DNA of 52,054 nucleotides from a virus, in the IMG/VR virus record IMGVR_UViG_3300032323_002379, positions 1 to 52,054 of that record; one strand, 5' to 3'. The notes below the pieces were generated by a model. It saw only the letters and a program-made list of their open reading frames with translations. It made no database searches and had not been told where the DNA came from. Both the position numbers and the translations under genes were made by a program. Of this stretch, positions 28,001-52,054 are shown in pieces. Position 1 is the stretch's first letter, and each line of letters opens with the position of its first letter.

Positions 28001-31000
28001 ACGCTGTTATTATCTAAAACAATATTTCCGTATTGATCTTTTTGTGTTGTGTAGTAGTAAACTAATACGCCACGTGCAGATAGTTCGCTGTCGTTGAAAA
28101 TAGAAGATAATTCATAACGATTCAGTTGTGGATTTAAAACACGATATTCCAGCACTTGTTTGGTATTACCATATGGTACCATGTCGCTGTAGTACCACGG
28201 AAATTTAGAATTTTTTACGCGATTTATATTCTGAAGCAAAACATCTACACTTGCTACAATGTCATTCGTGTTTACAAGATTTGATGTAACAGATAATTCT
28301 AAAAATTTATTTTTAAACTTGGTGTATTCTTTTTGAGCATATTCTGTACTTTTGATAAAATTAAGATTTTTATCTAGTAGAAATAAATTGCTGTAAATCA
28401 CAGGCGCGGTATGTTGAAGAATACTTCCGCCTTGTCTTTTTATTTGTAAATCCCTTATGTTGCTTACGCCTGGTACCGTTCCAGTTAAAAAATTACTGTT
28501 TTGACTAATTGTAATCAGATGGTTACGCAATTGACCTAATGTAAGATTTTCAAAGTTACTATTAATACTGTTTAAATCTAAGTTTTTAGGAATTTCATAG
28601 TATCCAATTTGGCTTACCGATTGACTATAGATTTTTATTGTAATAAAATCACCTACAGCGAGTTGTCCAATGCTGACTCTGACTGTTGTTCTTGCACCTA
28701 CATTTACTATTGCATAAGTGCTACTGTCTAATACATTAAAATTTCTATAAACAACTAAGGTGGGAACGCCGGCGGATTCGTCGGGCAATATATCAATTTC
28801 AAAATAGTTTGTAGTACCATCAAATTGATAGTTGAATAACTGATATTGCTTGCTGGGTTCAGAAGTATTTGTCCATACATTTCTAAACTGATAACTATCA
28901 ATTGAACTATTTTGTCTTAGATAATAATTGTTAATTTTTTCTGTAGTAAATGCTACTGTTTCGTAATTAAATTCGTCGTTATCAAAATTATTGTCAAATT
29001 GAATATCGCCTACGTTATTAAAATTTCTGTAGGACAACGGGAATCCCAGAACAAGATCATTGGCTCCTGTGCCGGTTTTATAACTGAATAGTTTGGTACC
29101 AGTAAACGTGCTGTTCAAAAACAAAGTGTTGTCAGTAAGGCTATTATTATTTTCCGTAAAGACGTCAAATAGCGGTGCTTGATTTATCTGTGTTTTTTTC
29201 TGCGAGCGAACCCATACATTGCCATCAAAGTGATATTGGCTGTTTTCCACAATACCGTCAATGCTTACTACTTGATCGGTATAAACCGAAGTTCCGTTTT
29301 CTACAACATCATCTGTTTCTACTAGATGCACTCTGTAGTCGGGGTTCAGTACGTCGCTGTTAATATCTGCGATTTCTAATAGATAAACTTTATTTCGTGT
29401 AATTAGGTCTGTGTCGCTAGCAAATACTATTCTATCATTATGATTAACTGCGAATTCTAGACCATCAACAATTATAATTGTGCTAGTAGTAGAATCGGCC
29501 AGTTGTCCTTCAACCTGTACCAGTGCATTTGTAACGGTGTCTACTACGATACAGTTAATAGCATCTAGTGCTGCGGATCCATAGTTAAACAACTGTAGAT
29601 TGGACTCAAACTCAATGATAGGACGTAAGGCACGCTGCGCCTGATCCACTGAGGCTATAGCACTATTATACTCTGCCGTAGCATTAAGAACATCAATGTG
29701 AAACCATCTATTATTTCTAGTCCAAGAATTTCTATCTATACTTGCTCTATTAATTGTAATGTAATCAATTTCATTGTTGAAGATATCTTCTTTGATAAGT
29801 TGATCAACATCAATTAATTGTATTCCTGTGCCAACTCCTTCGACAAAATATTCTTTATCTGCGTAACTACTAGGAACTACATTGGTGTCAAATCTTACCT
29901 TCAATCCGTTAGTAAAGACGACTCCATTAGGACTTCTATAATTTTCTTTACCTAATATCTCGTTGGGAACATCAATGCTGCCACTGACAGGATTGACTAG
30001 TTTGATTCTGCCAGCAAAGGTTGACGATGTACCATCTTGATAATATAGGTACAAACTTGATGCAGTAATGATCGGAATTGATTCCCATATTCCGTTTCTG
30101 TTAATGTAATATTCGTTGTTGGCATATTTCTCGCCGCTTAGAATAAAAACTTTTTCTGTTATAGCAGTAACAGGTTGCGGATTAATTAATCTGACAACTT
30201 CATTGCCTTCTCCATCACTGAGCAGTTGAATTGTCCATATGCTAAATCTTAGATTTTGTGGTACCTGAGTGCCATTTTCAAAAGCAACAGTGTCTAACCC
30301 TTCAAAATCAAAAATACCATTGGCAGTCCAAAAATCATTACTGTTACTTTGGTCAAGGAAAATTACTTTCTTGCCTTGCCAGTTGGTTGTTATTCCGTCT
30401 AGGCCGCCGTAGGTATTGTTGATATAACTTACCATGCGATTATGAATTTCGCTGTAAGGAATATCTAAAGCAAAGTTTACATTATCAACTATAGCCATCG
30501 AAGCAAAATTATCTTGAGCTGTGGCCGTGGGCACCCTAAATGTTACTGTGCCCGAGTCGGTTCCGTTGTTAGTAACCCCCAGAATGTCTCTGCTTGATGT
30601 ATTTGGTTGATTTCTTCGTACACCAGTTACGCCAGGGTCACTTTGTATGTAAAAATCATGGCCCGGCTGGTCTACGACAAATTGATACACGCCGCCATGC
30701 GCTAGAGTAATTTCTGGGTTAAGGGCAGATCCGAAGGTACTAAATTTATATGTGCCGGTTGATTCGTCTCTGGTCACAGTAAAAGTTTCTGTGATAGGAA
30801 TTCCGGTTGCACGTACATCAACAGAATCTGCTCCATTAGGTAACCAATAGTATTGGTTAAAATTAACTAACTTATCAAAATCAATCAATCCACTGAAACT
30901 GTATGATTCGTTACTGAATAATCTGTCTTGGTCATTGGTTAACCCACCGTAGTATTGAATCTGTTGTAGTAAATCAATATAGTTGCCAAAAAAATCAATT

Positions 31001-31245
31001 TCGCCAGCTTTGTTTGTTACAACTACGCTAGGTTCAAGTTGGTAATTTTGTCTTTGAGCAGTTTGTTCTCTGATATAGCTATCGGAGCCTTTATTGGTTG
31101 GTGCAAACTGTCTTCCAATGTATCCATTGATTTTTAGAAGATCAGGTCTTGATACTAGTTGATCTATAGTAGCATTTAAAAACTTTTTATTAGTATCGGT
31201 TCTAAATACCTGTGGTAATAAATTAACTGATCTAATATTTGCCAT
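16090..31245 (-). CDS. Giant 5051-residue virion protein, probable baseplate wedge or fibre-network component (gp7 position)
   Basis: A single open frame of 15.2 kb. The N-terminus (NIRSVNLLPQVFRTDTNKKF, IDFFGNYIDLLQQIQYYGGL) resembles very large structural proteins found after gp6 in T4-like aquatic phages. The gene follows gp6 with a TAATG overlap, the place T4 uses for gp7 (about 1030 residues). Residues ~2200-3090 carry seven FG-GAP-type repeats (FGQSLDIGNRVIVVGAP and similar), as in a seven-bladed integrin-alpha propeller, with small Ig-like HGLKIGD domains inserted between blades 3/4 and 5/6. Residues ~3775-4050 have glycine motifs (PPLVIITGGGGTGATAE, PGQGYTT). From ~3870 onward come at least five copies of a NTYVLANASANASG-type repeat. 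No enzyme motif was recognised. gp7 equivalence is positional, not proven. Confidence 0.8.
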   Translation of the reverse strand: MANIRSVNLLPQVFRTDTNKKFLNATIDQLVSRPDLLKINGYIGRQFAPTNKGSDSYIREQTAQRQNYQLEPSVVVTNKAGEIDFFGNYIDLLQQIQYYGGLTNDQDRLFSNESYSFSGLIDFDKLVNFNQYYWLPNGADSVDVRATGIPITETFTVTRDESTGTYKFSTFGSALNPEITLAHGGVYQFVVDQPGHDFYIQSDPGVTGVRRNQPNTSSRDILGVTNNGTDSGTVTFRVPTATAQDNFASMAIVDNVNFALDIPYSEIHNRMVSYINNTYGGLDGITTNWQGKKVIFLDQSNSNDFWTANGIFDFEGLDTVAFENGTQVPQNLRFSIWTIQLLSDGEGNEVVRLINPQPVTAITEKVFILSGEKYANNEYYINRNGIWESIPIITASSLYLYYQDGTSSTFAGRIKLVNPVSGSIDVPNEILGKENYRSPNGVVFTNGLKVRFDTNVVPSSYADKEYFVEGVGTGIQLIDVDQLIKEDIFNNEIDYITINRASIDRNSWTRNNRWFHIDVLNATAEYNSAIASVDQAQRALRPIIEFESNLQLFNYGSAALDAINCIVVDTVTNALVQVEGQLADSTTSTIIIVDGLEFAVNHNDRIVFASDTDLITRNKVYLLEIADINSDVLNPDYRVHLVETDDVVENGTSVYTDQVVSIDGIVENSQYHFDGNVWVRSQKKTQINQAPLFDVFTENNNSLTDNTLFLNSTFTGTKLFSYKTGTGANDLVLGFPLSYRNFNNVGDIQFDNNFDNDEFNYETVAFTTEKINNYYLRQNSSIDSYQFRNVWTNTSEPSKQYQLFNYQFDGTTNYFEIDILPDESAGVPTLVVYRNFNVLDSSTYAIVNVGARTTVRVSIGQLAVGDFITIKIYSQSVSQIGYYEIPKNLDLNSINSNFENLTLGQLRNHLITISQNSNFLTGTVPGVSNIRDLQIKRQGGSILQHTAPVIYSNLFLLDKNLNFIKSTEYAQKEYTKFKNKFLELSVTSNLVNTNDIVASVDVLLQNINRVKNSKFPWYYSDMVPYGNTKQVLEYRVLNPQLNRYELSSIFNDSELSARGVLVYYYTTQKDQYGNIVLDNNSVPVITARRQLIKNKDFVFEQDRPAIRLLESFTQLYNDIIVIHDYSNTDGSFIPETPSKLGMYPSFVPEVFVDNTYLQDTLVIQGHDGSITPAFGDYRDDLLLELERRIYNNIKISYNSNSFNIYSYVPGKFRTTDYNLEEFTGILTQSFLKWVGNNRVDYITNSVFDANDPFTWNYKNFRDVLPGNENLQGTWRAIYKYFYDTDRPHTHPWEMLGFSKIPDWWIDRYGPAPYTGGNLVLWQDLEFGYIYGENRFDERFARVGLTSIIPVDDAGNLRSPESFLVKNFNSAKANASYSVGDIGPTENAWRRSSEFPYVVQIALALAKPGIYFGSLLNVDNYAINENLNQFTLRTSLQRVKPSLVKVNGINKNNVVERSAGYVNWIGDYLTGLGIGNPGTKIQDYLNGLDVRLSYKLAGYVDKNYIKLLAEQSSPTSTNESVIIPTENYAIYLNKSTPTRRINYSAVIVQKSAAGYTVNGYDLENPYFYIIPSLANNNIARIQVGDAVGIIYQDFQSYKVKIPYGFEFTTRQQVVDFLISYERYLVGQGMRFDQFNADLQVQQDFVLSAREFLTWAQQGWKEDSLIILSPVIDQIYIINDVGTVDEIENSVAGTKILDQNFNIIKSTQFTVNRTGSDFKLTVFEGKTISLAQLNVVEYEHAIILDNTTLFNDIIYKPELGNRQYRLKIVGSKTSSWNGQLDIPGFIYNDGKVDDWATGRDYQKGSLVAFKNKYYVALQNVLASTDFVVSNWQEIDKEKIKSGLLKNLTFNAGILENIYDINNQPADQKFNQYSNSLIGFRERDYLTDLGLDVETQTKFYQGYIKQKGTRNAVTALSSVELANLTSSLEVFEEWGLRVGEYGAIDSNDFVEITLDEELFREDPSTFVLLNDSEASPDQIIGVRSSRLYRRPNNYNKNILRLETYPNDKAKPLAAGYVNLSDVDYSIFDLQDYGNLLDILNEIGTGYKIWVAKDFDGDWNVYRVNETGNFITGYEYNLNTLIKITTFDPHNFQEGNILAFRNFDPDFDGFYRVFELIDSNSFFVTASRNPALIQEVGQVYGTGTIFLLTSVRSATDFGIVDLTPPYYWRENDKLWVDNNGDWRVYEKSEVWTGGRSLALNTEDYNTGNEYGASLRLNENSTTMIIGAPGAAGVGTGLVRVFSRAATGDNFTQSTVIQPFISYAEGFGQSLDIGNRVIVVGAPKTLSDRGVVFVYNYDPSTGANFIAALRASDGAAGHKFGTSVAISRDDKWLYVGAPGAESFYAYALTIAPAETTSIVKLSGSYDQTTSNVIASISNHGFTVPSGTYSQIGTNVTVTATDHGLKIGQPIWANVQSGSSTQGSYIVSNVVDENTFIYTSGTSASTSGAINIWPRANVYVTSGTATSGYANVRAILDVDTFAMDSNVSVTSSGVITVTSYTLDYTPASVDSVGVGGQNRIYIADLDYTLNGRVIDFRSIEGQDIITVNQLSYYKFISNITATAGNIGQFGQTIKSSTDGAQILVGAPEVDIDSKINSGAAFIYDRVKEGFYTDGITSTFIPNRNIGTTYRVTVNSVDAVEGTDYNKVGNSIVFVNTPPGGQFVEIEINDFQLVSRVGDDVATAGARFGTSIDMCPNNCSLYIGAPNYVRPDYFAGRVYRYANQGRIYGEAIGNISQPFISLAASYVQSGIVITVGAANHGLKIGDIINADILSGTAESGRYTVVSVSTKNINGTYTQSGTTVTVTSVMHDLVVGDSVIVSITSGIAASGTFVVTAVTSLNTFTYTSSSSATTSGDIIGVSVSNEFTITSDSPGEAAGFLSITTSVPTPVVDIGDSLRINGVEVVFTGRSIADAVADINNSVIPGVTATVFNGQLKLNSDSKIAFNVLNILPGFGDAVSKLGLDIYPFTQAIEHPYQEESEYFGTFVKITDTAGTLIVASQGSDTRSPLFIDAGETVFDQDSTRFADFSLNAGTAYVFDFIVSPQNSITNPGQFTFVQQLSPDNIVGEAFFGSSIDANQGFLVIGAKFDNNVVEQAGEVYVYNNENNRKSWNVIRQKEAKVDLESINRIFVFDKTKQEMLSTFDYIDPLKGKILGIAEQELDYISSFDPARYNQANPTIDVNTPQVGPLNPVFTTDVGTVVSWGKENIGKLWWNLDSVRYIDYEQGSLTYRSKTWATTFPGSTIEICEWIESDVPPGSYTGEGTVKFPDNTRYSVAYYVDKPTGLVKAKYYYWVINKFTTESYSTKSKSAGSIAEIIENPQTAGVPYIAAIRNDAFNLYHVTRYLSGTDTILHINYNLISNDNNIIHSEYHLIQENSPIVDPQEKIIQKFIDSLCGVTIDGSLVPDPALPESQKYGVASRPRQSVFINRTTALANFVNYINFVLIQVPIVVAFDNQKFYTADPIPDQNSGLYDEKTPNYENLDYLELSALPIGYKILVEEDTRHSGLWTISELTQDRQWELIKIQTYRTDFYIDLVDWYEASFDRTQLVDYTIETFAEIGTLPLSPGNILLVNNDGSGRFAYYVVNNDGTLSLVGLERGTVQLKESLYNLAIDGASFDTSVFDTVRFDQNPTDEVRSIATAIVEDIFVKSLSSQFSQLVFALLNYVLSEQKNVDWVFKTSFINVLHKIRKLDQYPNFVRDNQTYYLDYINEVKPYRTQVREYVLDYEGSDTIDGNITDFDLPGYYDTLSKTYRSPNGSSSLDSQIYQLLPYQHWLNNYKYQVSSIEVVNAGVAYEQPPLVIITGGGGTGATAEAEIDLTTGSITSINIINPGQGYTTTPQVIINGYGSRDTGAEITALVGIDGATPWTPTSSFTTDDIIAYLGNTYVLANASANASGQSYSFSSWSNSTPRAARINTPIVPWTNDTVYNTETYVISFSNNVYIANTEVINANLWANSASFFPFANAIVASTANVTFNFGNVSTIDVSGQIVSTLIVDQGDGFTVRPILEIIGSGIQANLQANIDAVTGRISDVTIVDPGFGYQSGNTRIRVIDPNTAAAAVARLKNVFYRPDPALSYNTTRSIDTRIKFDRITYSSNVQAWLPNSVYYLGDTVSYNGEAWRANTVATYANVIYASNVIVAYNSNLLVASNANTSVSALSVTFANAFGGNSSITYENAAIVDYDNTQTYAANTIVKFGVNYFINANTSANISGVSYTFPGVGTVLNANVLTYSNTASYIFDPVNINNSSVFATAGNVFVLANTTANATGRSFSFPAWSNSTPRAGRINANVVVWEPGIVYDTTNYVIQYLGNVFIANTQVIGANLFANSSRYFGNANVVAATSSNLTFSSGNVVAKTAQAVTFNPGNVTLGSARVTLNPGNVRIVPRANTIAWTPSAVIQPNEVFSINQQTFISANTTANVSGRSFAWFYANGNVASVRINANVVTWQPNTIYNTSSIVLDYLGNIIIANILASSSNLYANSATYFANANASISGNSFVTFNYANTMPVDATVVPSAIVSLDKPITYYKNDPASINGNLDLVTVSTNEAIGGLATGVATVRANVINSNLVFISNTIGTLQKGTVHWLRTASQNGSNPTYSINSNLQARVNGITYVFDVTKYQRINAVDFTNANDRTMAYYQPGTGMPGRNLTQLFSGIDYPGVQVLGSKFTSNISITSNVLRFFAVNNTITTANVQSFNFERENFGPGQIIDLSGSNFNNGLWTIGTVNDNAITVFGNIGSNLVDENVGANVSIAYGPENNPLYVDTIINSNYTDTSLGLRPEDINVDGGKYVDTYSSHGPEEFVPGRVFDNLNIEVYTLMLSGTANVGYRMMHNMITQPDGTATVWPTYYRINGANTAVLTANLNYTDSNIYVNNASLLPTPNPNGALPGVVFINGEKIYYYRNIAKEVKPWVANVVYVATDIVSYLGNTYIAANANANVTGSTFNISNVKLINTNVLTQIRRGVDGTGIANTHVIGSRVVDTGLDQLVPGRAHELTWLNAPPGGGNAFQTDTGDFIVDNFASNLVTATPELNAVTDGGGLEGSGTLQARFIKLATVN
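17740..19610 (-). repeat. Asn/Ala/Ser-rich protein-coding repeats in the giant gene
   Basis: Three long copies lie near 17740-18030, 18200-18490 and 19320-19610, each encoding a LANTTANATGRSFSF-like segment followed by RINANVVVW, YLGNVFIAN and an NSSRYFGNAN-like end. Shorter copies occur near 18600-18670 and 16400-16480. DNA copies are diverged, so the repeat is old and probably kept for structure. Boundaries are approximate. Confidence 0.65.
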
Positions 31246-42917: not shown

Positions 42918-42944
42918 TTACTCAGTTTGAGAGGAACATCCCAA

Positions 42945-43829
42945 GTGAAAATAAACTACCTAAACAACAAAGATATTCTTAAAGAAATACACAAAAGCAA
43001 GAGCACTTATTGTAGCTTTTCAAAGCCTGAGTATGCTGATTATGACATCATACTACCAAATGTAAAACAAATTAATAAAAAAAATATATTGCAGGCCAGG
43101 CGTAACCGAGCAGAAAGATTGGCCAAGTTGGCACACGAAGCAGCATCAGTTGATGGAGTTAAACGCAAACTTGACGAATTTGAAATTAAATATACCAAGA
43201 TTCCAGAATCCGATGTGGTGTTTAGGGTAATGACTTGGGATCATGTTCCTGCAGACGAAGGGAAAAAATCTAAGAAATCGGATAGTAAACTGATTGATGA
43301 TGAAGAAATTTTACTAACCGAATACGACGATGGCGCCGAATTGGCAGCACCGACCAAATACATCAAATGTAATTTTCCCCCGTTTCAACATTATAAAATT
43401 GACGACAACGGAGAGCCGTACTGTGTGGGCAAAAGTCATTGGCAAGGCGATATTGAAAAAGGTAACTTTTCTAAGGACCACGGAACTATGACCAAGAAGC
43501 TGGCACACATGTTTATGAAGCTGTGTGAACGTTACGCTACAAGATCAAATTGGCGTGGTTACACCTACAACGACGAAATGCGTAGTCAAGCGTTACTACA
43601 GTTATCGCAAATTGGACTACAGTTTGACGAATCAAAATCACAAAATCCTTTTGCTTATTATACTGCTGCCATCACCAATAGCTTCACTAGAGTACTCAAT
43701 ATTGAAAAGCGTAATCAAAATCTCCGGGACGATATTCTTGAAATGAACGGGCTTACTCCTAGCTATACCAGACAAGGTATGGGATCGTGGGGCGGTGGTG
43801 CACCTTCTGGCGAATATAGCGATGATTGA
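42945..43829 (+). CDS. 55: Late-transcription sigma factor gp55
   Basis: From GTG 42945 it has 294 residues. The C-terminal half matches the conserved part of gp55: LAHMFMKLCERYATRSNWRG, YNDEMRSQALLQLSQIGLQF, then KSQNPFAYYTAAITNSFTRV and NIEKRNQNLRDDIL. This is the helix set resembling sigma region 2, which binds the host RNA polymerase clamp and recognises the TATAAATA-type late element. T4 gp55 has 185 residues; the ~110 extra N-terminal residues are basic, then acidic (KNILQARRNRAERL). The frame extends six codons upstream to TTG 42927, but GTG 42945 has AGGA nine bases before it. It ends with a glycine-rich tail (GSWGGGAPSGEYSDD). It is divergent from the late structural operon that it presumably activates. 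Confidence 0.88.
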   Translation: MKINYLNNKDILKEIHKSKSTYCSFSKPEYADYDIILPNVKQINKKNILQARRNRAERLAKLAHEAASVDGVKRKLDEFEIKYTKIPESDVVFRVMTWDHVPADEGKKSKKSDSKLIDDEEILLTEYDDGAELAAPTKYIKCNFPPFQHYKIDDNGEPYCVGKSHWQGDIEKGNFSKDHGTMTKKLAHMFMKLCERYATRSNWRGYTYNDEMRSQALLQLSQIGLQFDESKSQNPFAYYTAAITNSFTRVLNIEKRNQNLRDDILEMNGLTPSYTRQGMGSWGGGAPSGEYSDD

Positions 43830-43867: not shown

Positions 43868-44887
43868 ATGTCTAACTTATTCAAACGAGCAGCAGTCTGC
43901 ACAGATATACATTTTGGATTAAAAAGCAACAGTCAAACACACAACGATGATTGTTTGAATTTTATAAAATGGTTTACTAAGAAAGCCAAAGAAGAAGGAT
44001 GCGAAACTGCATTCTTTCTTGGAGACTGGCATAATAATCGTGCAAGCATTAACATTGTCACTCTCAACTACAGTCTGCAAGCACTGGAGCACCTGAATGA
44101 CAATTTTAAAGCTGTTTATTTTATTCCTGGCAATCACGATCTTTATTATCGCGACAAGAGGGATGTCCAAAGTGTTGCATGGGCACGGAACTTACCTAAC
44201 ATTCATATTTGTAATGATTGGTATATCAGTGGCGACGTGGTTATTGCTCCTTGGTTGGTTGGTGACGATCATAAGCGTATTTCTAAGTTAAACGCCAAAT
44301 ACATGTTTGGGCATTTTGAACTGCCACACTTTTACATGAATGCCATGGTTCAAATGCCCGATCACGGTGATGTCAAGCGTGAGGACTTTCATGGCATAGA
44401 ACGTGTGTTTACCGGACACTTCCACAAACGCCAGACACACAAAAACATTACCTATATTGGCAACTGCTTCCCTCATAATTACGCAGACAACCATGACGAC
44501 GAACGCGGCATGATGGTACTAGAGTGGGGCGCAGAGCCTGAATATCATGCCTGGCCTGATCAACCCAGATATCGTGTTTATCAACTCAGTGATGTGTTGC
44601 AAAACACTGATAGATTGCTCAATCCCGGTATGCATGTGCGTGTGAATCTTGACGTAGACATCAGCTACGAAGAAGCCACATTTATCAAAGAAACATTTGT
44701 TAATACATATAATTTAAGAGAAATTACTCTTATTCCGCAAAAGGTTGTGAGCGAAGATATCAATTACGATATAACTGGAAATATCATGTTTGAAAGTGTA
44801 GATACTATTGTTACCAATCAGCTTACAAATATCGAAAGCGAACAGTATAATAAAACGTTACTACTTGACATCTATAGAAATCTCTAA
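43868..44887 (+). CDS. 47: Recombination endonuclease subunit gp47 (Mre11-like)
   Basis: The 339 residues equal the length of T4 gp47. The calcineurin-like phosphoesterase motifs appear in order: TDIHFGLKS (D and H metal ligands), FLGDWHNNRA, IPGNHDLYYRD, MFGHFELPH and FTGHFHKRQTH. The C-terminal ~110 residues (VRVNLDVDISYEEATFIKET onward) form the capping domain. With gp46 it makes the Mre11/Rad50-type complex that resects double-strand ends for recombination-dependent replication, and helps degrade host DNA. It ends in TAATG, a one-base overlap with gene 46. All metal ligands appear present. Confidence 0.95.
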   Translation: MSNLFKRAAVCTDIHFGLKSNSQTHNDDCLNFIKWFTKKAKEEGCETAFFLGDWHNNRASINIVTLNYSLQALEHLNDNFKAVYFIPGNHDLYYRDKRDVQSVAWARNLPNIHICNDWYISGDVVIAPWLVGDDHKRISKLNAKYMFGHFELPHFYMNAMVQMPDHGDVKREDFHGIERVFTGHFHKRQTHKNITYIGNCFPHNYADNHDDERGMMVLEWGAEPEYHAWPDQPRYRVYQLSDVLQNTDRLLNPGMHVRVNLDVDISYEEATFIKETFVNTYNLREITLIPQKVVSEDINYDITGNIMFESVDTIVTNQLTNIESEQYNKTLLLDIYRNL

Positions 44888-46656
44888 TGTTTAAAATTCG
44901 AACACTGGCAGTGAAAAATTTTATGAGCGTGGGTAATGCTACCCAGGCTGTTCAGTTTGACCGGCGAGATCTAACTCTAGTACTAGGACAGAATCTTGAT
45001 CTAGGCGGAGACGACACAGGAGCCAGGAATGGAACTGGCAAAACAACCATTATCAATGCACTAAGCTATGCACTGTACGGTGCTGCTCTAACTAATATCA
45101 AAAAAGATAATCTTATCAACAAAACAAATGGTAAGAATATGTTAGTCACTATTGAATTTGAAAAGGACGGAATTGACTATAAAATTGAAAGAGGTCGCAA
45201 GCCCAATACGATGGCATTTTATGTGGGCGGACAAGAACAAGAAATCACCGATGAATCACAAGGAGATTCGCGAGAGACACAGGCCGAAATAGAACGCATG
45301 CTGGGCATGAGTCACGACATGTTCAAACATATCGTTGCACTTAACACCTACACAGAACCATTCCTTGCCCTCAAGGCCAACGATCAACGAGCCATTATTG
45401 AACAGTTGCTCGGTATCACCATGTTGAGTGAAAAAGCAGATGCGCTAAAAGAGCAGCTCAAAGCGACCCGAGACGCTATTACTCAAGAAGAATATCGTAT
45501 CAAAGCTGTTACTGATGCCAATGCTCGTATCCAAGAACAAATTGAAGCTACTCGTCGTCGACAAACATTATGGAAAAATAAACAATTAAGTGAAATATCT
45601 GATCTCGAAAAAGCCTTGGCAGTTGTTGGCGATTTAGATATTGAGCAGGAACTTGCCAATCACGATGCACTTGATGCATACAATAAAACTGTTAATAGTA
45701 TCAATGAAATTACTCGGTGGAAAGTGTCTTGCGAAACTGAGCAAGTAAAATTGTTAAAACAACTAGACAAGTTTAAAAAAGAAATTGAAACACTAGAAAA
45801 ACACCAATGTTATGCTTGTGGTCAGCCAATACACGATCACAAGCATGAGGAAGTGTTAAATGAAAAAAAGACCACATCAAAAGAAACAGCTTTACAATAT
45901 CTTACCAACGACCAACAATTACAAACACACATTGGGGCTCTAGAAACGTTGGGAGACCCAGGAAAGCCCCCAAAAGTTTTTTACGACAAAAAAGAAGATG
46001 CTATCAATCATAGAAACACTGTAGCAAACTTACAGCAACAACTTGCTACAAAGCGCAGTGATCAAGATCCGTATGAAGAACAAATTCGTGAAATGGAAAC
46101 ACAGGCTCTTGAAGAAATCAATTATGATTTAATTAATGAACTTGCCAATTTACGAGAACATCAAGAGTTCTTGCTTAAACTATTAACCAACAAAGACAGT
46201 TTCATTCGCAAAAGAATCATTGATCAAAATCTAAGTTATCTAAACGCTAGATTAAGTCAGTACTTGGATAGAATTGGGTTGCCGCATACTGTTAAATTTC
46301 AAAACGATCTGTCTGTCAGTATTGAAGAACTGGGTAGAGAGCTAGACTTTGATAACTTGAGTAGAGGTGAACGCAATAGATTGATATTAAGCTTGTCATG
46401 GGCATTTAGAGATGTGTGGGAAAGTTTGTATCAACCCATCAACTTGTTGTTTATTGATGAAGTTATCGACACAGGCATGGATAGTTCGGGAGTAGAAAAC
46501 AGTCTAGCTATTCTAAAGAAAATGGCCCGTGAGGGAAATCGCAGTGTTTGGCTTGTTAGTCACAAGGACGAACTGGCTGGGCGTGTAAACAATGTTCTTA
46601 GTGTAGTTAAAGAAAACGGATTTACTAGTTATAATACGGATGTTGAAATAAAATGA
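44887..46656 (+). CDS. 46: Recombination endonuclease subunit gp46 (Rad50-like ATPase)
   Basis: 589 residues (T4 gp46 is 560). Walker A is GARNGTGKTTIINALSYALY near residue 45. Two coiled-coil arms flank a zinc hook (HQCYACGQPIHDH) at about residues 305-320. The ABC signature is NLSRGERNRLILSLSWAF near 500, and Walker B is INLLFIDEVIDTG. It is the ATPase partner of gp47 and should bridge and unwind DNA ends. Its last four bases overlap the next start (ATGA), coupling the recombination genes to the radical-SAM block. Confidence 0.95.
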   Translation: MFKIRTLAVKNFMSVGNATQAVQFDRRDLTLVLGQNLDLGGDDTGARNGTGKTTIINALSYALYGAALTNIKKDNLINKTNGKNMLVTIEFEKDGIDYKIERGRKPNTMAFYVGGQEQEITDESQGDSRETQAEIERMLGMSHDMFKHIVALNTYTEPFLALKANDQRAIIEQLLGITMLSEKADALKEQLKATRDAITQEEYRIKAVTDANARIQEQIEATRRRQTLWKNKQLSEISDLEKALAVVGDLDIEQELANHDALDAYNKTVNSINEITRWKVSCETEQVKLLKQLDKFKKEIETLEKHQCYACGQPIHDHKHEEVLNEKKTTSKETALQYLTNDQQLQTHIGALETLGDPGKPPKVFYDKKEDAINHRNTVANLQQQLATKRSDQDPYEEQIREMETQALEEINYDLINELANLREHQEFLLKLLTNKDSFIRKRIIDQNLSYLNARLSQYLDRIGLPHTVKFQNDLSVSIEELGRELDFDNLSRGERNRLILSLSWAFRDVWESLYQPINLLFIDEVIDTGMDSSGVENSLAILKKMAREGNRSVWLVSHKDELAGRVNNVLSVVKENGFTSYNTDVEIK

Positions 46657-47312
46657 CTTACAAATCTATACCAATAATCAGTATATCTCCCGTAGATCAT
46701 AACATTATTATAGAGTGGCATTTACACGATAGATGTAATTTTGACTGTATGTATTGCCCTGAAAAGTGGCATAGTTTGACGTCCAAAACGAAAAGTTTAG
46801 ATGAGTTAAAAAAATGTTGGCTTGAAATTTATGACAAAACTAAACACAGAAACTTGAAGTATAAAATAAGCTTAACTGGAGGTGAGATTACAATAAATCA
46901 AGACCTGTTGCCTTTTATACAATGGCTGGCGAGCTCATATGGAGAAAAATTGGCAGTAATAGGAATGGTTACAAATGGGACTGCAAATCAAAAGTTGTAC
47001 ACGGATTTATTCGAATATTTAGATTGGATCAGTTTTTCGACCCACAGTGAGTTTTTTAACGAAAATAAATTTTTTAACAATGTATTGAGCGCCAAAATTG
47101 CAACTAAAGGAACCAACAAAACAGTCCATGTTAATATAATGAATGAACCCTGGCACCAAGATAGAATAGAAATTTACAAAAAATTTTTAAATCAACGTGA
47201 CATAAATTTTTCAGTATCAGAAATTGATTGGTCTTTGCGTATACGCGATGAAGCAAAAACAAATAATAATTTAAATCTTTTTCATTTTGATGACCATGCA
47301 GCAAATAATTGA
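46653..47312 (+). CDS. Radical SAM protein, N-terminal (core) part of a likely SPASM enzyme
   Basis: This 219-residue frame has the radical-SAM 4Fe-4S motif CNFDCMYC (EWHLHDRCNFDCMYCPEKWH) near residue 31, the GGE motif KISLTGGEITI and later strands of the partial TIM barrel (AVIGMVTNGTANQ, DWISFSTHSEF, KTVHVNIMNEPW). It ends HFDDHAANN* without the auxiliary iron-sulphur domain expected after the barrel. A cysteine-rich SPASM/twitch-like segment begins at once in the +1 frame (next entry). The sequence therefore looks like the first part of a ~315-residue radical-SAM/SPASM enzyme. Such enzymes use SAM radicals to modify peptides, sugars or other substrates; the target here is unknown. A sequencing error in the junction cannot be excluded. 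Confidence 0.75.
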   Translation: MTYKSIPIISISPVDHNIIIEWHLHDRCNFDCMYCPEKWHSLTSKTKSLDELKKCWLEIYDKTKHRNLKYKISLTGGEITINQDLLPFIQWLASSYGEKLAVIGMVTNGTANQKLYTDLFEYLDWISFSTHSEFFNENKFFNNVLSAKIATKGTNKTVHVNIMNEPWHQDRIEIYKKFLNQRDINFSVSEIDWSLRIRDEAKTNNNLNLFHFDDHAANN

Positions 47313-47601
47313 TCACAACTATAATGTTATTGTTCGTGACGAACAAGGAAATGAATATTTAATGTACGCCAATAGATTACATAACGAGCAACTTGATTAT
47401 TGGAAAGGCTGGAAGTGTAATGCTGGATCTGATTATATTCTAATAGATAGTAAACTCAATGTTTACGGTGCTCAATGTGAAAATGATTTTTTAGGCGTTT
47501 TGTTTCAAGATTTCAAACTGTTAGATCAACCTACAACTTGTAAACTAGAAAGATGCACAAATAGTACAGATGATCTTTTAACAATAAAATCTGCTAAATG
47601 A
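47290..47601 (+). CDS. SPASM/twitch-like iron-sulphur domain, probable C-terminal part of the preceding radical SAM enzyme
   Basis: About 103 residues. After IDHNYNVIVRDEQGNEYLMY come GWKCNAGSDYILIDSKLNVY, GAQCENDFLGVLF and CKLERCTNSTDDLL. The cysteine pattern Cx(~18)C...CxxxxC, with a beta-hairpin resembling 'kIyidaDGxvypC', is typical of the auxiliary iron-sulphur region of SPASM/twitch radical-SAM enzymes. The reading frame is +1 relative to the upstream barrel and overlaps its 3' end by 23 bases. The upstream frame is closed by TAA at 47272, so a frame change anywhere from 47275 to 47312 would join them. No Shine-Dalgarno is visible before ATG 47290 or 47296, which argues against independent translation. 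Its final bases overlap the next ATG. Confidence 0.6.
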   Translation: MTMQQIIDHNYNVIVRDEQGNEYLMYANRLHNEQLDYWKGWKCNAGSDYILIDSKLNVYGAQCENDFLGVLFQDFKLLDQPTTCKLERCTNSTDDLLTIKSAK

Positions 47602-49103
47602 ATCCCTACGCATTAATATTAAGCATACCAAGAGTGGCTCCGGTACGTCCGGCAGCAGCACCTGCAATAATCAAGCAAATTTTTAATCAACATAATTTGC
47701 CTAGCAAAATTTTAGATATTAATATTGATTATTTTACAAGATTTAAAAATTCAATTGATTCTGTTCTGTTTAACGAAATTGATGAATATCTATTTGTAAA
47801 AAATAAAATTTTATCGAGTGACGCTGAAAAAGAACTAGTAAATTTTATTGATAGTTGGATTTCTAAAATACTGTTACTAGAATCTAAAAAATTGTTTATT
47901 AGCGTATTCAGTTGGCAAGCACAAAGATTTGTGGAGTTGTTTTTAAGAAGATTTAGAGTTCAAAGCACTACGGAAGTTATCGTGGGCGGCCAAGGCTTGA
48001 TTAGAGAAGAAAATGGCAGTTACAGCGAACGCCCAGAGTTCGCGCACTTTTTAAAAAAAGAAAATTTAATCGACCATTGGATACGTGGCGAAGCCGAAAC
48101 GACTATACCAGAAATTATCAAAGGCAACTACGACGTTGCAGGTATCAACACAGATTTTTTCGCTGAACGCAGTAACGTAAAAGAACACCAACCAATGGAT
48201 TTTAGTGATTTTACAATCACTGAATATCAAAGTGGTTATAAATCTGGTGTGCTTCCAATGGAAACCAGTAGAGGATGTGTACGTAATTGTACTTTTTGCG
48301 ATATTCCTACCATGCAAGGAGGCTTTCGGTTCAAGACAGGATCTCAGCTCGCAAAAGAGATGATTCATTATTACGAGTCGTACGGTGTACGAGATTATTT
48401 TTTTCACGATGCGTTGTGTAACGGAAGTGTTCGAGATTTCAGACAATTCAATGATTCATTGATAGCTTATTACGAATCACATGGATTGCCCGACAGGTAC
48501 TTTAGTTACAGCAGTCATGCTATTGTACATAATCAAAAAGCGTTTCGTCCAGAAGATTTTGAATCAATGTGTCGGGCAGGAGCCGACACCATGGTGATTG
48601 GAGTTGAAACCGGAAGTGATCGTGTTCGTGCTCATATGAAAAAAGGTTTTAACAATGAGGATTTAGATTATAACATGGAATATTATAGCAAGTATAATAT
48701 GCATGTGTATTTTTTAATTATTGTCGGTTTTCCTACAGAAACCAAAGAAGATTTCGTCGCTACCTTAGATATGTTAACAAAATATCAACGTTATGTAGCC
48801 GACGGCACAATTATAGGAGTAAACTTAGGCACAACACTTACCATTGAAGAAGGAACCGAACTTTACAATAATCCTGAAAGATTAAAAATAATAGGTGTCA
48901 ATAACCAACGTCCTCAAGGAACAGAATGGATTTGTGAAGATAACCCTACACTAACTTACAAAGAACGTATACTGCGACGTATACAAGCCCAAGAACATGC
49001 TGTTGCGTTAGGTTATACTTTCTGGAAGGGCGACGATCAAATGAAAATTATGATGGACAAATATCAAGATAGGTTAAGTAAATTGGCAGGAGTCATACAT
49101 TGA
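47598..49103 (+). CDS. B12-binding-like radical SAM protein
   Basis: This 501-residue protein has an N-terminal Rossmann-like region (YALILSIPRVAPVRPAAAPA, then FISVFSWQAQRFVELFLRR and VIVGGQGLIREENG) resembling the B12-binding domain of class B radical SAM enzymes. DxHxxG, the motif with the cobalt-binding histidine, was not found. At ~215-240 lies the radical-SAM core: GVLPMETSRGCVRNCTFCDI, with CxxxCxxC. Barrel strands include GADTMVIGVETGSDRVRAHM and YFLIIVGFPTETKEDFV. The last part is helical. This type of enzyme often methylates or rearranges unactivated carbons; the substrate is unknown. It begins in a four-base ATGA overlap with the upstream gene, consistent with coupling in one radical-SAM operon. 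Confidence 0.8.
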   Translation: MNPYALILSIPRVAPVRPAAAPAIIKQIFNQHNLPSKILDINIDYFTRFKNSIDSVLFNEIDEYLFVKNKILSSDAEKELVNFIDSWISKILLLESKKLFISVFSWQAQRFVELFLRRFRVQSTTEVIVGGQGLIREENGSYSERPEFAHFLKKENLIDHWIRGEAETTIPEIIKGNYDVAGINTDFFAERSNVKEHQPMDFSDFTITEYQSGYKSGVLPMETSRGCVRNCTFCDIPTMQGGFRFKTGSQLAKEMIHYYESYGVRDYFFHDALCNGSVRDFRQFNDSLIAYYESHGLPDRYFSYSSHAIVHNQKAFRPEDFESMCRAGADTMVIGVETGSDRVRAHMKKGFNNEDLDYNMEYYSKYNMHVYFLIIVGFPTETKEDFVATLDMLTKYQRYVADGTIIGVNLGTTLTIEEGTELYNNPERLKIIGVNNQRPQGTEWICEDNPTLTYKERILRRIQAQEHAVALGYTFWKGDDQMKIMMDKYQDRLSKLAGVIH

Positions 49104-49615
49104 GATTGGAAATAGATCTACATGTAGAGCGTCGTCTAGGTGACCCATTAATTAAAATAGTTATTGATGACTATCTGACTTTATATGATGGTGTAGCACA
49201 AAACTATTATGATTTTGATATAGATCTAACCGATGGCGGGCACGATTTGACATTGGTTCATTACGGTAAACTTCCAGATCATCACGTACTTGATAGTCAA
49301 GGCAACATTACAATTGATAGGTATGTTGAAATTAAAAACATAAAACTAGATAACATATTACTTGAATCTGAGCTATGGGCAGGCAAGTTTTTTCCAGTTT
49401 ATATGCACAAAGCCGACCATGAACCATACTTTATTTGTCCAAATTTATATCTAGGGCACAACGGTGCATGGAAATTAGAATTTGCCACTCCTGCAACATC
49501 TTGGTTAATTGACGTCAGAAAACCAGGACCAAAATTATCCGGCACTATATTTAAAACTAATAGTGAGACTTTGGAACTAGCTAAAAACTTTTTTAGAGAT
49601 TTACCTGATGTTTAA
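49100..49615 (+). CDS. Hypothetical beta-rich protein of the radical SAM block
   Basis: 171 residues, from a TTG at 49100 that overlaps the previous stop (ATTGAG). The body is mainly predicted beta: EIDLHVERRLGDPLIKIVID, NYYDFDIDLTDGGHDLTLVH, RYVEIKNIKLDNILLESELW. The pattern is like a small beta-sandwich or carbohydrate-binding-like domain. No catalytic, metal or membrane motif is seen. Its overlap with two radical-SAM genes (four bases before, eight after) indicates co-regulation and perhaps a substrate-presenting role, but that is inference. The short C-terminal helix SETLELAKNFFRDL ends just before the stop. Confidence 0.6.
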   Translation: MRLEIDLHVERRLGDPLIKIVIDDYLTLYDGVAQNYYDFDIDLTDGGHDLTLVHYGKLPDHHVLDSQGNITIDRYVEIKNIKLDNILLESELWAGKFFPVYMHKADHEPYFICPNLYLGHNGAWKLEFATPATSWLIDVRKPGPKLSGTIFKTNSETLELAKNFFRDLPDV

Positions 49616-50723
49616 TTACAATAACATTGATGAATATCAACTTGAAATTACAACTTATTGTAATGCTGCCTGTCCTCAGTGCCCTAGAAATATTCAAGGG
49701 GGGCCGATTAATCCCTTTATGCCATTGATTCACTTAGACAAGGATGTTATTGATGCTGTCTTTGATGTTGACCACTGTAGGAAACTAAAACAGATATTTT
49801 TTTGCGGTAGCTACGGCGATCCTGTTATGCATCCTGAATTTCTTGACATACTACAGGCGTTTAGACAAAAAAATCCAACACTATGGTTATACGTTCACAC
49901 CAATGGCGGCGTTCACGATACAGACTATTGGGCAGAAATCGCTACTATCATAAATGGGTATGGTCAAATTGATTTTGGCTTTGACGGATTAGAAGATACT
50001 TTACATCTGTACAGACGTAATGTAAAGTACAACGTTGCTATGCGGAATGCGCGAGCTTATATCAAATCCGGCGGTAGAGCGCAATGGAACTATATTGTTT
50101 TTAAACATAACGAACATCAAGTCGAACAGGCAAGAGCGTTAAGTCAAGAATATGGATTTTTTAATTTCCTTCCTAGGCGAACTGGAAGATTTTACGACCA
50201 CACCAATGAATGTGCCTACCCATCTTGGCCTGTGCTTAATAAAAATAGAACTGTAGAATATTACTTAGAAGAACCCGTAAATGAAGAATGGCGCAATGCC
50301 AGTGTACAAAAAATTGAAGTAATTAAAAAAATGCATGGTAGTTTTGAAAAATATTTAAAGCAGACTCCTGTTCGTTGTGATGCATTATTAGGAAATAAAG
50401 TTGTCATTACTGCAGAAGGACTAGTGTTGCCCTGTAATTTCTTTGAACATAACATGTATGATGCTAGATTTTATACTCACGCAATGCCTGGCGCTAATGG
50501 AGCTAGCTTTATCAGTTCAGGAAGAATTCAAGTAAAAGAATTTGTGGATGAATACAAGGATGAATTAGATGTCAACAAAAACAGTTTAGAAAATATTTTT
50601 AAGTCTAATTTTTGGACTGAGCTTGTTGATCGCTGGTCTGGTCCAAACAAAATTATGGAGTGTGCAATGACCTGCGGGGATAAGTTTACAAAAGTATGGG
50701 ATCAAGGAGGGTCCAGGAGATGA
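49608..50723 (+). CDS. Radical SAM protein with SPASM-like C-terminus
   Basis: This 371-residue protein opens with EYQLEITTYCNAACPQCPRN, the CxxxCxxC motif at ~residue 18, then KQIFFCGSYGDPVMHPEFLD and LWLYVHTNGGV, matching barrel strands and a GGE-like segment. The central IDFGFDGLEDTLHLYRRNVK resembles the substrate-side barrel of the SPASM-type family. The C-terminal part has CDALLGNKVVITAEGLVLPC, NFFEHNMYDARF and ECAMTCGDKFTKVW, giving cysteines suitable for one or two auxiliary clusters. It is a complete example of what the gene pair at 46653-47601 would be if joined, and could be a paralogue. The final bases overlap the SDR gene by four (ATGA). Substrate is unknown. Confidence 0.8.
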   Translation: MFNYNNIDEYQLEITTYCNAACPQCPRNIQGGPINPFMPLIHLDKDVIDAVFDVDHCRKLKQIFFCGSYGDPVMHPEFLDILQAFRQKNPTLWLYVHTNGGVHDTDYWAEIATIINGYGQIDFGFDGLEDTLHLYRRNVKYNVAMRNARAYIKSGGRAQWNYIVFKHNEHQVEQARALSQEYGFFNFLPRRTGRFYDHTNECAYPSWPVLNKNRTVEYYLEEPVNEEWRNASVQKIEVIKKMHGSFEKYLKQTPVRCDALLGNKVVITAEGLVLPCNFFEHNMYDARFYTHAMPGANGASFISSGRIQVKEFVDEYKDELDVNKNSLENIFKSNFWTELVDRWSGPNKIMECAMTCGDKFTKVWDQGGSRR

Positions 50724-51304
50724 AAGTTTTAGTTACAGGTGGTAATAGAGGTTTAGGCAAACACTTGGTGCAAGTGTTCAATGGCACCAGTATCAGTCGT
50801 GCAGACAATCTTGATATAACAAAGGATTACAACTCTATTGCCAAAATGAGCTTGGATTATGATATTTTTATCAATAACGCATTTGATGGGCCACCGCAGG
50901 AGGAATGGGCCAACTTTGGACAAGTACATGTACTAGAAGCTGTGTATGATGCATGGGTTCAATCTAATAAAAAAGGCTACATTTACAATATTGGCAGTGT
51001 GGGAGAAAAAAGCATTGTAGCCAGAGAACCTAGTTTTGAAACTTATCGTGTGGCAAAAGCAGCACTGGCACATGCATCAAAACAATGTACAGCATCATTT
51101 AAAGCAAACTGTGCGCTGTTTAAAACCACATTGATTACTCTAGATCGATTGGACACAGAACTTAGTCGTAGCAGGGCAACGTGGACAGGTAATGGTATTA
51201 ATGCCAACGACATAGCAAACTTTATAAAATATGCATATACATTAGATCATAATACTTGTATAGAAGAAATAACATTTTATTGTAACCTTGAATATAAGAG
51301 ATAA
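50720..51304 (+). CDS. Short-chain dehydrogenase/reductase family protein
   Basis: 194 residues from ATG 50720, which follows AGGAG directly and overlaps the previous stop by four bases (ATGA); an extension to 50696 would use a GTG-like or internal start and lies within the upstream gene. The Rossmann motif MKVLVTGGNRGLGKHL (TGxxxGxG), IFINNAF (NNAG-like), YIYNIGSVGEKS and YRVAKAALAHASKQ (YxxxK) define an NAD(P)-dependent SDR. At ~195 residues it is shorter than the 250-residue classical enzymes, lacking part of the C-terminal substrate-binding region. It probably reduces or oxidises a product of the radical-SAM enzymes encoded before it. Direction and substrate cannot be inferred. Confidence 0.82.
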   Translation: MKVLVTGGNRGLGKHLVQVFNGTSISRADNLDITKDYNSIAKMSLDYDIFINNAFDGPPQEEWANFGQVHVLEAVYDAWVQSNKKGYIYNIGSVGEKSIVAREPSFETYRVAKAALAHASKQCTASFKANCALFKTTLITLDRLDTELSRSRATWTGNGINANDIANFIKYAYTLDHNTCIEEITFYCNLEYKR

Positions 51305-51315
51305 TTATATGCTGT

Positions 51316-51750
51316 ATGTCATGGCTATTCGAATCCACTCTAGTGGAATCACTTCCTGAAGATTGTGTGGGATTTGTGTATTTGATAACAAATACTGTGT
51401 CTGGGCGCAAATACATAGGGAAAAAATTAGCCAAATTTTCAAAAACTACAGTACGAACAGTAAAACTCAAAAACGGCACCAAAAAGAAAAAGAAGATCAG
51501 AAGCAAAATAGACAGCGATTGGCAACTATATTATGGCTCAAACGACGAACTCAAAAAAGACATCGAAACACTAGGCTCAGAAAAATTTATTAGAGAAATA
51601 CTGTATTACTGCACATCCAAAGCACAATGCTCATACATCGAAGCACGAGAACAATTCAGACACAAAGTCTTAGAATCAGATGCATATTATAACGGACAGA
51701 TCAGCGTTCGTGTCCATGGCTCCCATATCAAAAACAAGTTAAGCAGTTAA
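51316..51750 (+). CDS. GIY-YIG nuclease
   Basis: 144 residues. GFVYLITNTVSGRKYIGKKL near residue 20 is the GIY-YIG signature (V-Y and Y-I-G). It is followed by a very basic stretch (KNGTKKKKKIRSKIDSDW), then LYYGSNDELKKDIETLGSEK and a helix with the expected catalytic Glu (QCSYIEAREQFRHKV). The C-terminus (YYNGQISVRVHGSHIKNK) fits a family of compact GIY-YIG proteins frequent in T4-like phages. It may be a homing-type endonuclease or a DNA-processing enzyme. It is the last gene before a stretch of structured non-coding sequence, which could be linked to it. The start at ATG 51316 is 12 bases after the SDR stop, without a strong Shine-Dalgarno. Confidence 0.78.
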   Translation: MSWLFESTLVESLPEDCVGFVYLITNTVSGRKYIGKKLAKFSKTTVRTVKLKNGTKKKKKIRSKIDSDWQLYYGSNDELKKDIETLGSEKFIREILYYCTSKAQCSYIEAREQFRHKVLESDAYYNGQISVRVHGSHIKNKLSS

Positions 51751-51753
51751 GCT

Positions 51754-52054
51754 AGCACAGGCCAACATCGTGTGCTCTATACCTGGATCTAGGATCGCAG
51801 GGACGGAAGACTCGCCGCTGCCGCGAGCACTCAACTACTACCCTTCGGGATGAAGATCGCAAATGCCGCGATTTAGTTGTTTGAATAGGATTAATAAGGC
51901 TAAAAAGACGTGCGAGCGATCGCACACGGTTAACTACATGCTGATATATGTAAATTAACCCGCCGTTGTATAAGAACGGAGCTCGAGGTACCGGACAACC
52001 GCCTCTGTAATGCTCTAATATCAGTGACTGTGCTACTCAGATGAAGTACATATA
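51754..52054 (+). ncRNA. Candidate large structured non-coding RNA, truncated by the window edge
   Basis: About 300 bases without a gene. Perfect stems, by position: 51754-51759 with 51771-51776; 51811-51815 with 51823-51827; 51832-51837 with 51874-51879, enclosing a UUC(G) hairpin at 51841-51849 and the stem 51856-51860 with 51868-51872; 51910-51915 with 51920-51925, closed by a GCGA (GNRA) loop; 51928-51933 with 51955-51960, containing 51935-51939 with 51948-51952; 51963-51967 with 51975-51979; 51985-51988 plus 51992-51994 with 51999-52005 (three-base bulge); and 52034-52037 with 52045-52048. UUCG- and GNRA-type loops occur only on the plus strand, so that strand is favoured. No tRNA, tmRNA or intron core was recognised. 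Comparison with GOLLD, ROOL and HEARO RNA models is suggested. Confidence 0.6.

Follow-up and report, generated by a model that had tools for sequence, protein, structure and literature searches.

An island of three radical SAM enzymes, a beta-rich protein and a short-chain dehydrogenase/reductase (SDR) follows the gp55-, gp47- and gp46-like genes on the plus strand of a viral genome, just as an earlier note on this DNA had described, and we read it, with somewhat more belief than doubt, as a phage-borne module that tailors sugars or glycans by radical chemistry. The window, by which we mean the whole stretch analysed, covers positions 1-52,054 (around 52 kb) of the viral IMG/VR record IMGVR_UViG_3300032323_002379, and its relevant features are given in Table 1.

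Table 1. Genes of the island, its borders and the adjacent context in the window
Feature	Positions	Strand	Basis
gp55-like late sigma factor (context)	42927..43829	+	PHROG 12791, E 2.3e-81
gp47-like SbcD nuclease subunit (context)	43868..44887	+	PHROG 100
gp46-like SbcC nuclease subunit (context; left island border)	44887..46656	+	PHROG 77
RS1N: radical SAM core subunit, CNFDCMYC, 219 aa	46653..47312	+	Pfam Radical_SAM 1.3e-6
RS1C: detached twitch-like auxiliary Fe-S domain of RS1	~47296..47601	+	cysteine pattern; homology to fused Bacteriovoracaceae protein
B12RS: radical SAM with predicted N-terminal B12-binding-like Rossmann domain, CVRNCTFC, 501 aa	47598..49103	+	Pfam Radical_SAM 1.8e-20
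BETA: free-standing protein, predicted CBM60-like beta-sandwich, 171 aa, TTG start	49100..49615	+	predicted fold
RS2: radical SAM, twitch-type auxiliary site, CNAACPQC, 371 aa	49608..50723	+	Pfam Radical_SAM 7.2e-11
SDR: short-chain dehydrogenase/reductase, N-S-Y-K tetrad and TGxxxGxG (probable start)	50720..51304	+	conserved motifs
GIY-YIG SegE-like protein (right island border)	51316..51750	+	Pfam SegE_GIY-YIG 1.1e-32

Regarding the layout, all the genes from gp46 through SDR overlap, by 4, 17, 4, 4, 8 and 4 nt in order, with ATGA at 46653, 47598 and 50720 and TTGA at 49100. The overlapping junctions of the ATGA or similar type that had been noticed are therefore real, and they are consistent with translational coupling. 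An 11-nt gap separates SDR from the GIY-YIG gene. The start of RS1C is the ATG at 47296 or the one at 47290, the listed ORF beginning with the TTG at 47287, and SDR probably starts at the ATG at 50720 (194 aa) and not at 50696. When the window was compared with a close relative (L004), the island genes had dN/dS values of 0.05-0.08, which are approximate given the high dS.

The cluster is real and is widespread in one clade of uncultured T4-like jumbo phages. Scanning viral contigs with B12RS, RS2, SDR and BETA yielded about 200 loci, several of them sharing a contig, and the carriers are phages of this kind with contigs of up to 364 kb. The identical gene order on dozens of independent contigs excludes an assembly artefact or chance, and the genes keep a conserved linkage in relatives instead of being scattered independently. 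In these relatives the island sits between gp46 and the GIY-YIG gene, and further on there is a gene that we presume, from its position in PA5oct, to be baseplate-hub-like. The region is variable among loci, where SGNH-like, 2OG-oxygenase-like and other inserts come and go. Among cultured phages, gp46 comes closest to PA5oct- and Atu_ph07-type jumbo phages (49% identity at most), and these have no island-type genes after gp46. The cultured-phage collection gave no match for B12RS, SDR or RS1N, and for RS2 only partial matches below 30%. One locus (L049) taken at one point for a bacterial genome with the block was dropped as such, since pelagimyophages carry curli genes, and it was kept as a different phage context. 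An aquatic jumbo phage lineage published in 2025 (PMC12619734) was also considered as a possible match; the word 'radical' is absent from its text. As to the host, RF01718 offers a weak hint of freshwater Burkholderiales.

The CX3CX2C motif is present in all three radical SAM enzymes, and both B12RS and RS2 score above the Pfam Radical_SAM cut-off. The first of the three, RS1, had been taken for a single SPASM-type gene. Actually, it consists of two ORFs, the core (RS1N) and a detached twitch-like domain (RS1C). RS1N lies at the Pfam Radical_SAM cut-off (29.1 against 29.5 in one search, 29.7 in another) and its cysteines are conserved in 13 of 14 cases, while RS1C has four cysteines with a looser spacing (GX2C), three of them invariant and the fourth present with a shifted alignment. 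The split was seen, with differing junctions, in all of the 8 distinct loci that have RS1, and a dN/dS of 0.06 indicates purifying selection on each half, which rules out a frameshift or sequencing error; no fused RS1N-RS1C ORF was found in any phage. The Bacteriovoracaceae have one protein (378-387 aa) whose segments at around 34-201 and 278-370 correspond to RS1N and RS1C respectively, therefore we regard RS1N and RS1C as two halves of one enzyme type.

RS2 had been called a second SPASM-type enzyme as well, but its auxiliary site is of the twitch type. The arrangement C257-X13-G-X4-C276, followed by C352 and C356, agrees with the twitch pattern (CX9-15GX4C and further cysteines, for one auxiliary cluster), and these four auxiliary cysteines, which differ from the seven-cysteine SPASM set, are present in 79 of 79 sequences; C18, C22 and C25 are present in 78 of them. 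The Pfam SPASM score was under the cut-off (15.0 against 21.5 bits), and a search of RS2 against PDB sequences gave chance matches only, with no close solved relative. Neither RS2 (25.7 bits) nor RS1N (21.2 bits) is a full member of the N-twitch radical SAM family NF033640, whose cut-off is 170. The SDR was identified correctly from the beginning: its glycine-rich NAD(P) motif (TGxxxGxG) and its intact N-S-Y-K tetrad are invariant or nearly so among 78 sequences, with N98, S101, Y117 and K121 (numbered from the 202-aa ORF) in all 78, and the window copy is under the Pfam adh_short cut-off (22.5 against 26.6).

The predicted model of B12RS (pLDDT 91) shows an N-terminal B12-type Rossmann domain and a radical SAM core. 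Its closest fold matches are AprD4, a sugar diol dehydratase (6fd2, Z 25.1 over 391 residues), OxsB, an enzyme of nucleotides (24.0), and MgmA, an enzyme of proteins (23.7), which for this model appear tied within around 1.4 Z, gaps too small to choose one of them, and Foldseek orders its matches as MgmA, TsrM and AprD4. The AprD4-type combination of Rossmann and radical SAM folds is found in B12RS, although it is common to class B enzymes and thus nonspecific, and the score against the AprD4 family model NF033070 was 16.0 bits (E 0.0043), below the cut-off of 500. In the description of this protein as a B12-like radical SAM enzyme, the radical SAM match stands above the Pfam cut-off, the B12-type fold is predicted and the use of cobalamin is putative.

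BETA, previously an unknown beta-rich protein, is indeed beta-rich, and its model (pLDDT 87) is predicted to have a CBM60-like fold at residues 1-141, so that carbohydrate binding is its putative function. The match to CBM60 2xfd reached Z 10.7 (rmsd 2.7 over 103 residues) and that to 2xhh Z 10.4, the next unrelated fold being at 5.8. Pfam CBM60 (PF16841) matched 3 of 32 BETA members below the gathering score (best E 0.15), a weak independent support for the fold. A search of BETA against PDB sequences gave nothing significant, and no cellular BETA was found by a tighter alignment, which covers close BETA relatives only.

We analysed linkage in 74 loci with distinct SDR sequences, among which near-identical variants may count separately. 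SDR is directly downstream of RS2 in 70 of 73 core loci and fused to it in the other three (L074, L075 and L077), the sole exception among the 74 loci being a 35% paralogue. B12RS and BETA are adjacent in 50 of 51 loci, with the remaining one at a contig edge, and RS1N and RS1C in 8 of 8. Furthermore, when loci were retrieved through BETA alone, 57 of the 64 BETA genes had B12RS as a direct neighbour; the remaining copies mostly adjoin N-twitch radical SAM or aminotransferase-like genes, and the family has divergent members that are barely recognised by pairwise search. As far as sequences tell, these three pairings are genomic ones. Five loci (L216-L219 and L221) have, in the place of RS2-SDR, a BETA gene flanked by two aminotransferase-like paralogues. 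The aminotransferase-like phage proteins had no PDB match and no Pfam match, and we assign them through a relative in bacteria that matches Aminotran_1_2 weakly.

Co-inheritance was assessed with pairwise distance matrices and Mantel correlations in 46 loci. The B12RS and BETA distances correlated with r 0.97, and the partial r given gp46 was also 0.97, whereas gp46, which represents the phage backbone, gave r 0.10 with B12RS and 0.13 with BETA. Against RS2 and SDR, gp46 gave r 0.71 and 0.54 respectively, and RS2 against SDR gave 0.60. RS2-SDR is therefore a core pair, mostly vertical, that tracks the phage backbone, B12RS-BETA is a swappable cassette exchanged as one unit, and RS1 is sporadic and shifts its position between loci. 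These distances and the linkage contradict the idea that the set travels as a single block. Nevertheless, the linkage, the RS2-SDR fusions and the strong purifying selection support the other proposal of the earlier note, a dedicated biosynthesis or modification pathway.

Bacterial RS2 homologues adjoin glycan or polysaccharide genes in several phyla. Their neighbours are a polysaccharide flippase-type protein, sulfotransferases and FemAB in L229, GT4 and GT28 in L233, GT2 and Gfo/Idh in L225, and GT2, a fused RS1 and an N-twitch-like radical SAM gene in L224 and L231. The Bacteriovoracaceae neighbourhood contains RS2, the fused RS1, more radical SAM genes and an aminotransferase-like protein which is related to the genes replacing RS2-SDR in the five phage loci, and a Bacteriovoracales MAG has a chromosomal RS2 (43% identity) and, separated from it by one small ORF, an SDR. 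Some bacterial homologues, for example in cyanobacteria, have no glycan neighbours, and the island of the window itself contains no glycosyltransferase. The larger phage records have 10-16 radical SAM genes each. In several of them there is a second tandem array of 5-8 N-twitch-like radical SAM genes, often after structural tail-fibre-like genes. A carbamoyltransferase goes with it in 8 of 10 records, and a UDPG/GDP-mannose dehydrogenase and an NAD epimerase in a single one. The bacterial RS2 neighbourhoods and these sugar enzymes of the second phage array, taken together, favour sugars or glycans.

Thus, among the pathway types that had been named (peptide, sugar, lipid or nucleobase), sugar or glycan is the favoured one, on the grounds of the CBM60-like partner, the AprD4-like fold and the polysaccharide-locus neighbours. 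What we observed are the genes, their linkage, the co-inheritance of B12RS and BETA, the RS2-SDR fusion, the split RS1, the catalytic motifs and the predicted folds; the substrate, the order of reactions, the products, the physical contacts and the biological role we infer. A 5'-deoxyadenosyl radical of RS2 would abstract a hydrogen from a sugar-like substrate, and a dehydrogenation or dehydration would lead to a keto intermediate, the twitch Fe-S cluster taking the electron. SDR would then reduce the keto group, with a net epimerisation or deoxygenation as the result. B12RS, with its AprD4-like predicted fold, may dehydrate, deoxygenate or C-methylate another position, BETA, as a specificity subunit acting in trans, may bind the glycan and hand it to B12RS, and RS1N and RS1C would together make up a third radical SAM enzyme, of the twitch type and with two chains. 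The modified sugar would end on a phage or host surface glycan, and we propose that the cassettes are swapped because variation of surface glycans is useful against receptors or competitors. A more specific version, in which BETA supplies specificity to B12RS-type enzymes in trans and the phage edits an assembled glycan, swapping the pair to change the edit, is a possibility that we consider less likely than not.

It seems unlikely to us that the radical SAM enzymes modify a peptide or a protein of the phage or host, by a RiPP-like maturation or on a coat or tail protein, with BETA serving for recognition. SPASM and twitch enzymes often mature peptides, the closest NCBIfam models of RS2 are maturases such as W_rSAM_matur, and MgmA, the first Foldseek match of B12RS, is a protein glutamine methylase. 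However, the fully overlapping cluster contains no precursor gene, in agreement with what the earlier note had reported (one may lie at a distance), RS2 lacks the full SPASM cysteine set, BETA resembles a carbohydrate module and several of the bacterial homologues adjoin glycan genes. We find it similarly improbable that B12RS performs a cobalamin-dependent C-methylation, or another step, on a diffusible secondary metabolite or lipid that is tailored by SDR. The B12-binding-like Rossmann domain would suit this, the model also matches the class B methyltransferase structures TsrM, OxsB and TokK, and NCBIfam matches include PhpK and ladderane-type enzymes, far below the cut-off. On the other hand, AprD4 has the same B12-binding-like fold and can function without B12, the partner is CBM-like, and no carrier-protein, terpene or polyketide genes were seen in the island.

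A modification of nucleobases, nucleotides or DNA (hypermodification), including a viperin-like RS1, has a very small chance of being right. The cluster is downstream of recombination genes and the best NCBIfam match of RS1N is the prokaryotic viperin (NF038283), but with 60.5 bits against a cut-off of 180; RS1C is twitch-like and, in polysaccharide loci of bacteria, forms one protein with the core, a TGT/DpdA-type enzyme is absent from 10 related records, which are possibly fragments, and the gp46 genes of cultured relatives have no such neighbours. Finally, there might be no joint pathway, the region being a hot spot in which auxiliary genes with no relation to one another gather and are each maintained on their own, as the variable SGNH-like and 2OG-oxygenase-like inserts and the sporadic RS1 could suggest. 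The near-perfect pairings, the RS2-SDR fusion, the co-inheritance of B12RS and BETA (r = 0.97) and the low dN/dS make this highly improbable for the island, and for the RS2-SDR and B12RS-BETA pairs it is already largely refuted.

Phages are known to have glycosyltransferases and sugar genes. If the sugar or glycan reading is true, radical glycan chemistry would add deoxygenation, epimerisation or C-methylation to the ways in which a phage can alter a surface. Furthermore, B12RS and its CBM60-like partner are a concrete candidate for a protein complex, and the swapped cassettes are variants provided by nature whose specificities may differ.

Regarding the known systems, a close parallel is AprD4/AprD3 of apramycin biosynthesis, the precedent for a radical SAM enzyme that works on a sugar with a reductase as partner: the 1,2-diol dehydratase AprD4 is paired there with AprD3, a reductase dependent on NADPH (PMC5461906). 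The predicted fold of B12RS is similar, the AprD4 structure nearest to it has paromamine bound, and a reductase-type gene, SDR, is nearby. Nevertheless, B12RS scores far under the cut-off of the AprD4 family, the island has a CBM60-like partner in addition and the genes are phage-borne; and since SDR partners RS2 and not the AprD4-like enzyme, the parallel concerns the logic of the two systems rather than orthology. RS2, with its radical SAM motif and four-cysteine twitch site, presumably resembles the twitch alcohol dehydrogenases of the BtrN type, a likeness that we draw from the cysteine pattern, although no solved radical SAM structure matches RS2 significantly in sequence. BETA shares its predicted fold with the Ca-dependent CBM60/CBM36 modules, but it is free-standing, is tied to a radical SAM enzyme and remains under the Pfam cut-off. 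The N-twitch radical SAM family is abundant as tandem arrays in the island-bearing phages, although no radical SAM gene of the window is a full member.

Among phages, jumbo cyanophages have variable clusters for capsular polysaccharide modification with sugar enzymes (PMC7824862), and 'radical SAM' is absent from the main text of that report. We found no paper joining CBM60 with radical SAM in the openly accessible literature, and the pairing of B12RS with a CBM60-like protein did not appear in the literature searched, whereas radical-SAM-rich T4-like phages have already been reported. Environmental T4-like phages with 12 radical SAM genes (PMC5332604) and pelagimyophages with radical SAM cassettes in variable regions (PMC7029224) are described, in the passages of both papers that we drew on, as lists of genes with no function given, and these passages mention neither a CBM60-like partner nor an RS2-SDR core, a split RS1 or a pattern of swapping. 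For the unexplained abundance of radical SAM genes reported in environmental T4-like phages, the tailoring of sugars or glycans would be a likely functional theme.

The core pair of the island, formed by the radical SAM enzyme with a twitch-type auxiliary site (RS2) and the short-chain dehydrogenase/reductase (SDR), was joined into a single ORF of around 570 aa in three related loci. L218 and L221 had, in place of this pair, a BETA-family gene (CBM60-like beta-sandwich) flanked on either side by one of two aminotransferase-like paralogues. The swappable cassette, B12RS (radical SAM, B12-binding-like domain) and BETA, can also be substituted: between gp46 and RS2 we found, in L028 and other loci, the genes c29, c30 and c31 (around 159, 171 and 254 aa respectively), and among the cassette genes searched these gave no significant Pfam or NCBIfam match. 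L049 kept the order B12RS-BETA-RS2-SDR but in a different phage context, accompanied by CsgG-like and curlin-like genes and preceded by a cupin gene whose C-terminus is similar to the end of gp46.

In three other loci, structural genes were followed by arrays in which N-twitch-like radical SAM genes, around five to eight of them, were interspersed with glycosyltransferase-like, SGNH-like and carbamoyltransferase genes. Elsewhere in the window, an uninterrupted minus-strand open frame of 5051 codons presumably encodes a giant structural protein.

Coordinates of the features described
Feature	Locus	Position
RS2-SDR fusion ORF	L074	6406-8115
RS2-SDR fusion ORF	L075	5463-7172
RS2-SDR fusion ORF	L077	5734-7452
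Aminotransferase-like pair + BETA-family gene	L218	8156-10690
Aminotransferase-like pair + BETA-family gene	L221	4443-6956
c29-c30-c31 cassette	L028	8277-9992
B12RS-BETA-RS2-SDR in its phage context	L049	2624-14880
N-twitch-like radical SAM array	L147	5761-17276
N-twitch-like radical SAM array	L148	4146-12406
N-twitch-like radical SAM array	L150	10536-19548
5051-codon frame	window	16090-31245
RF01718 match	window	51750-51882

Immediately after the GIY-YIG gene, the right border of the island, the window showed a strong Rfam match to RF01718, the Polynucleobacter-1 RNA (116.5 bits against a gathering threshold of 37), and an Rfam scan of 20 related phage loci placed it downstream of this gene in 12 of them. 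The presence of RF01718 may point to the phage host. In 2010 this RNA was listed with Burkholderiales and fresh water or estuary as its sources; therefore, taking that listing together with the phage matches, this orphan RNA is at least in part phage-borne.
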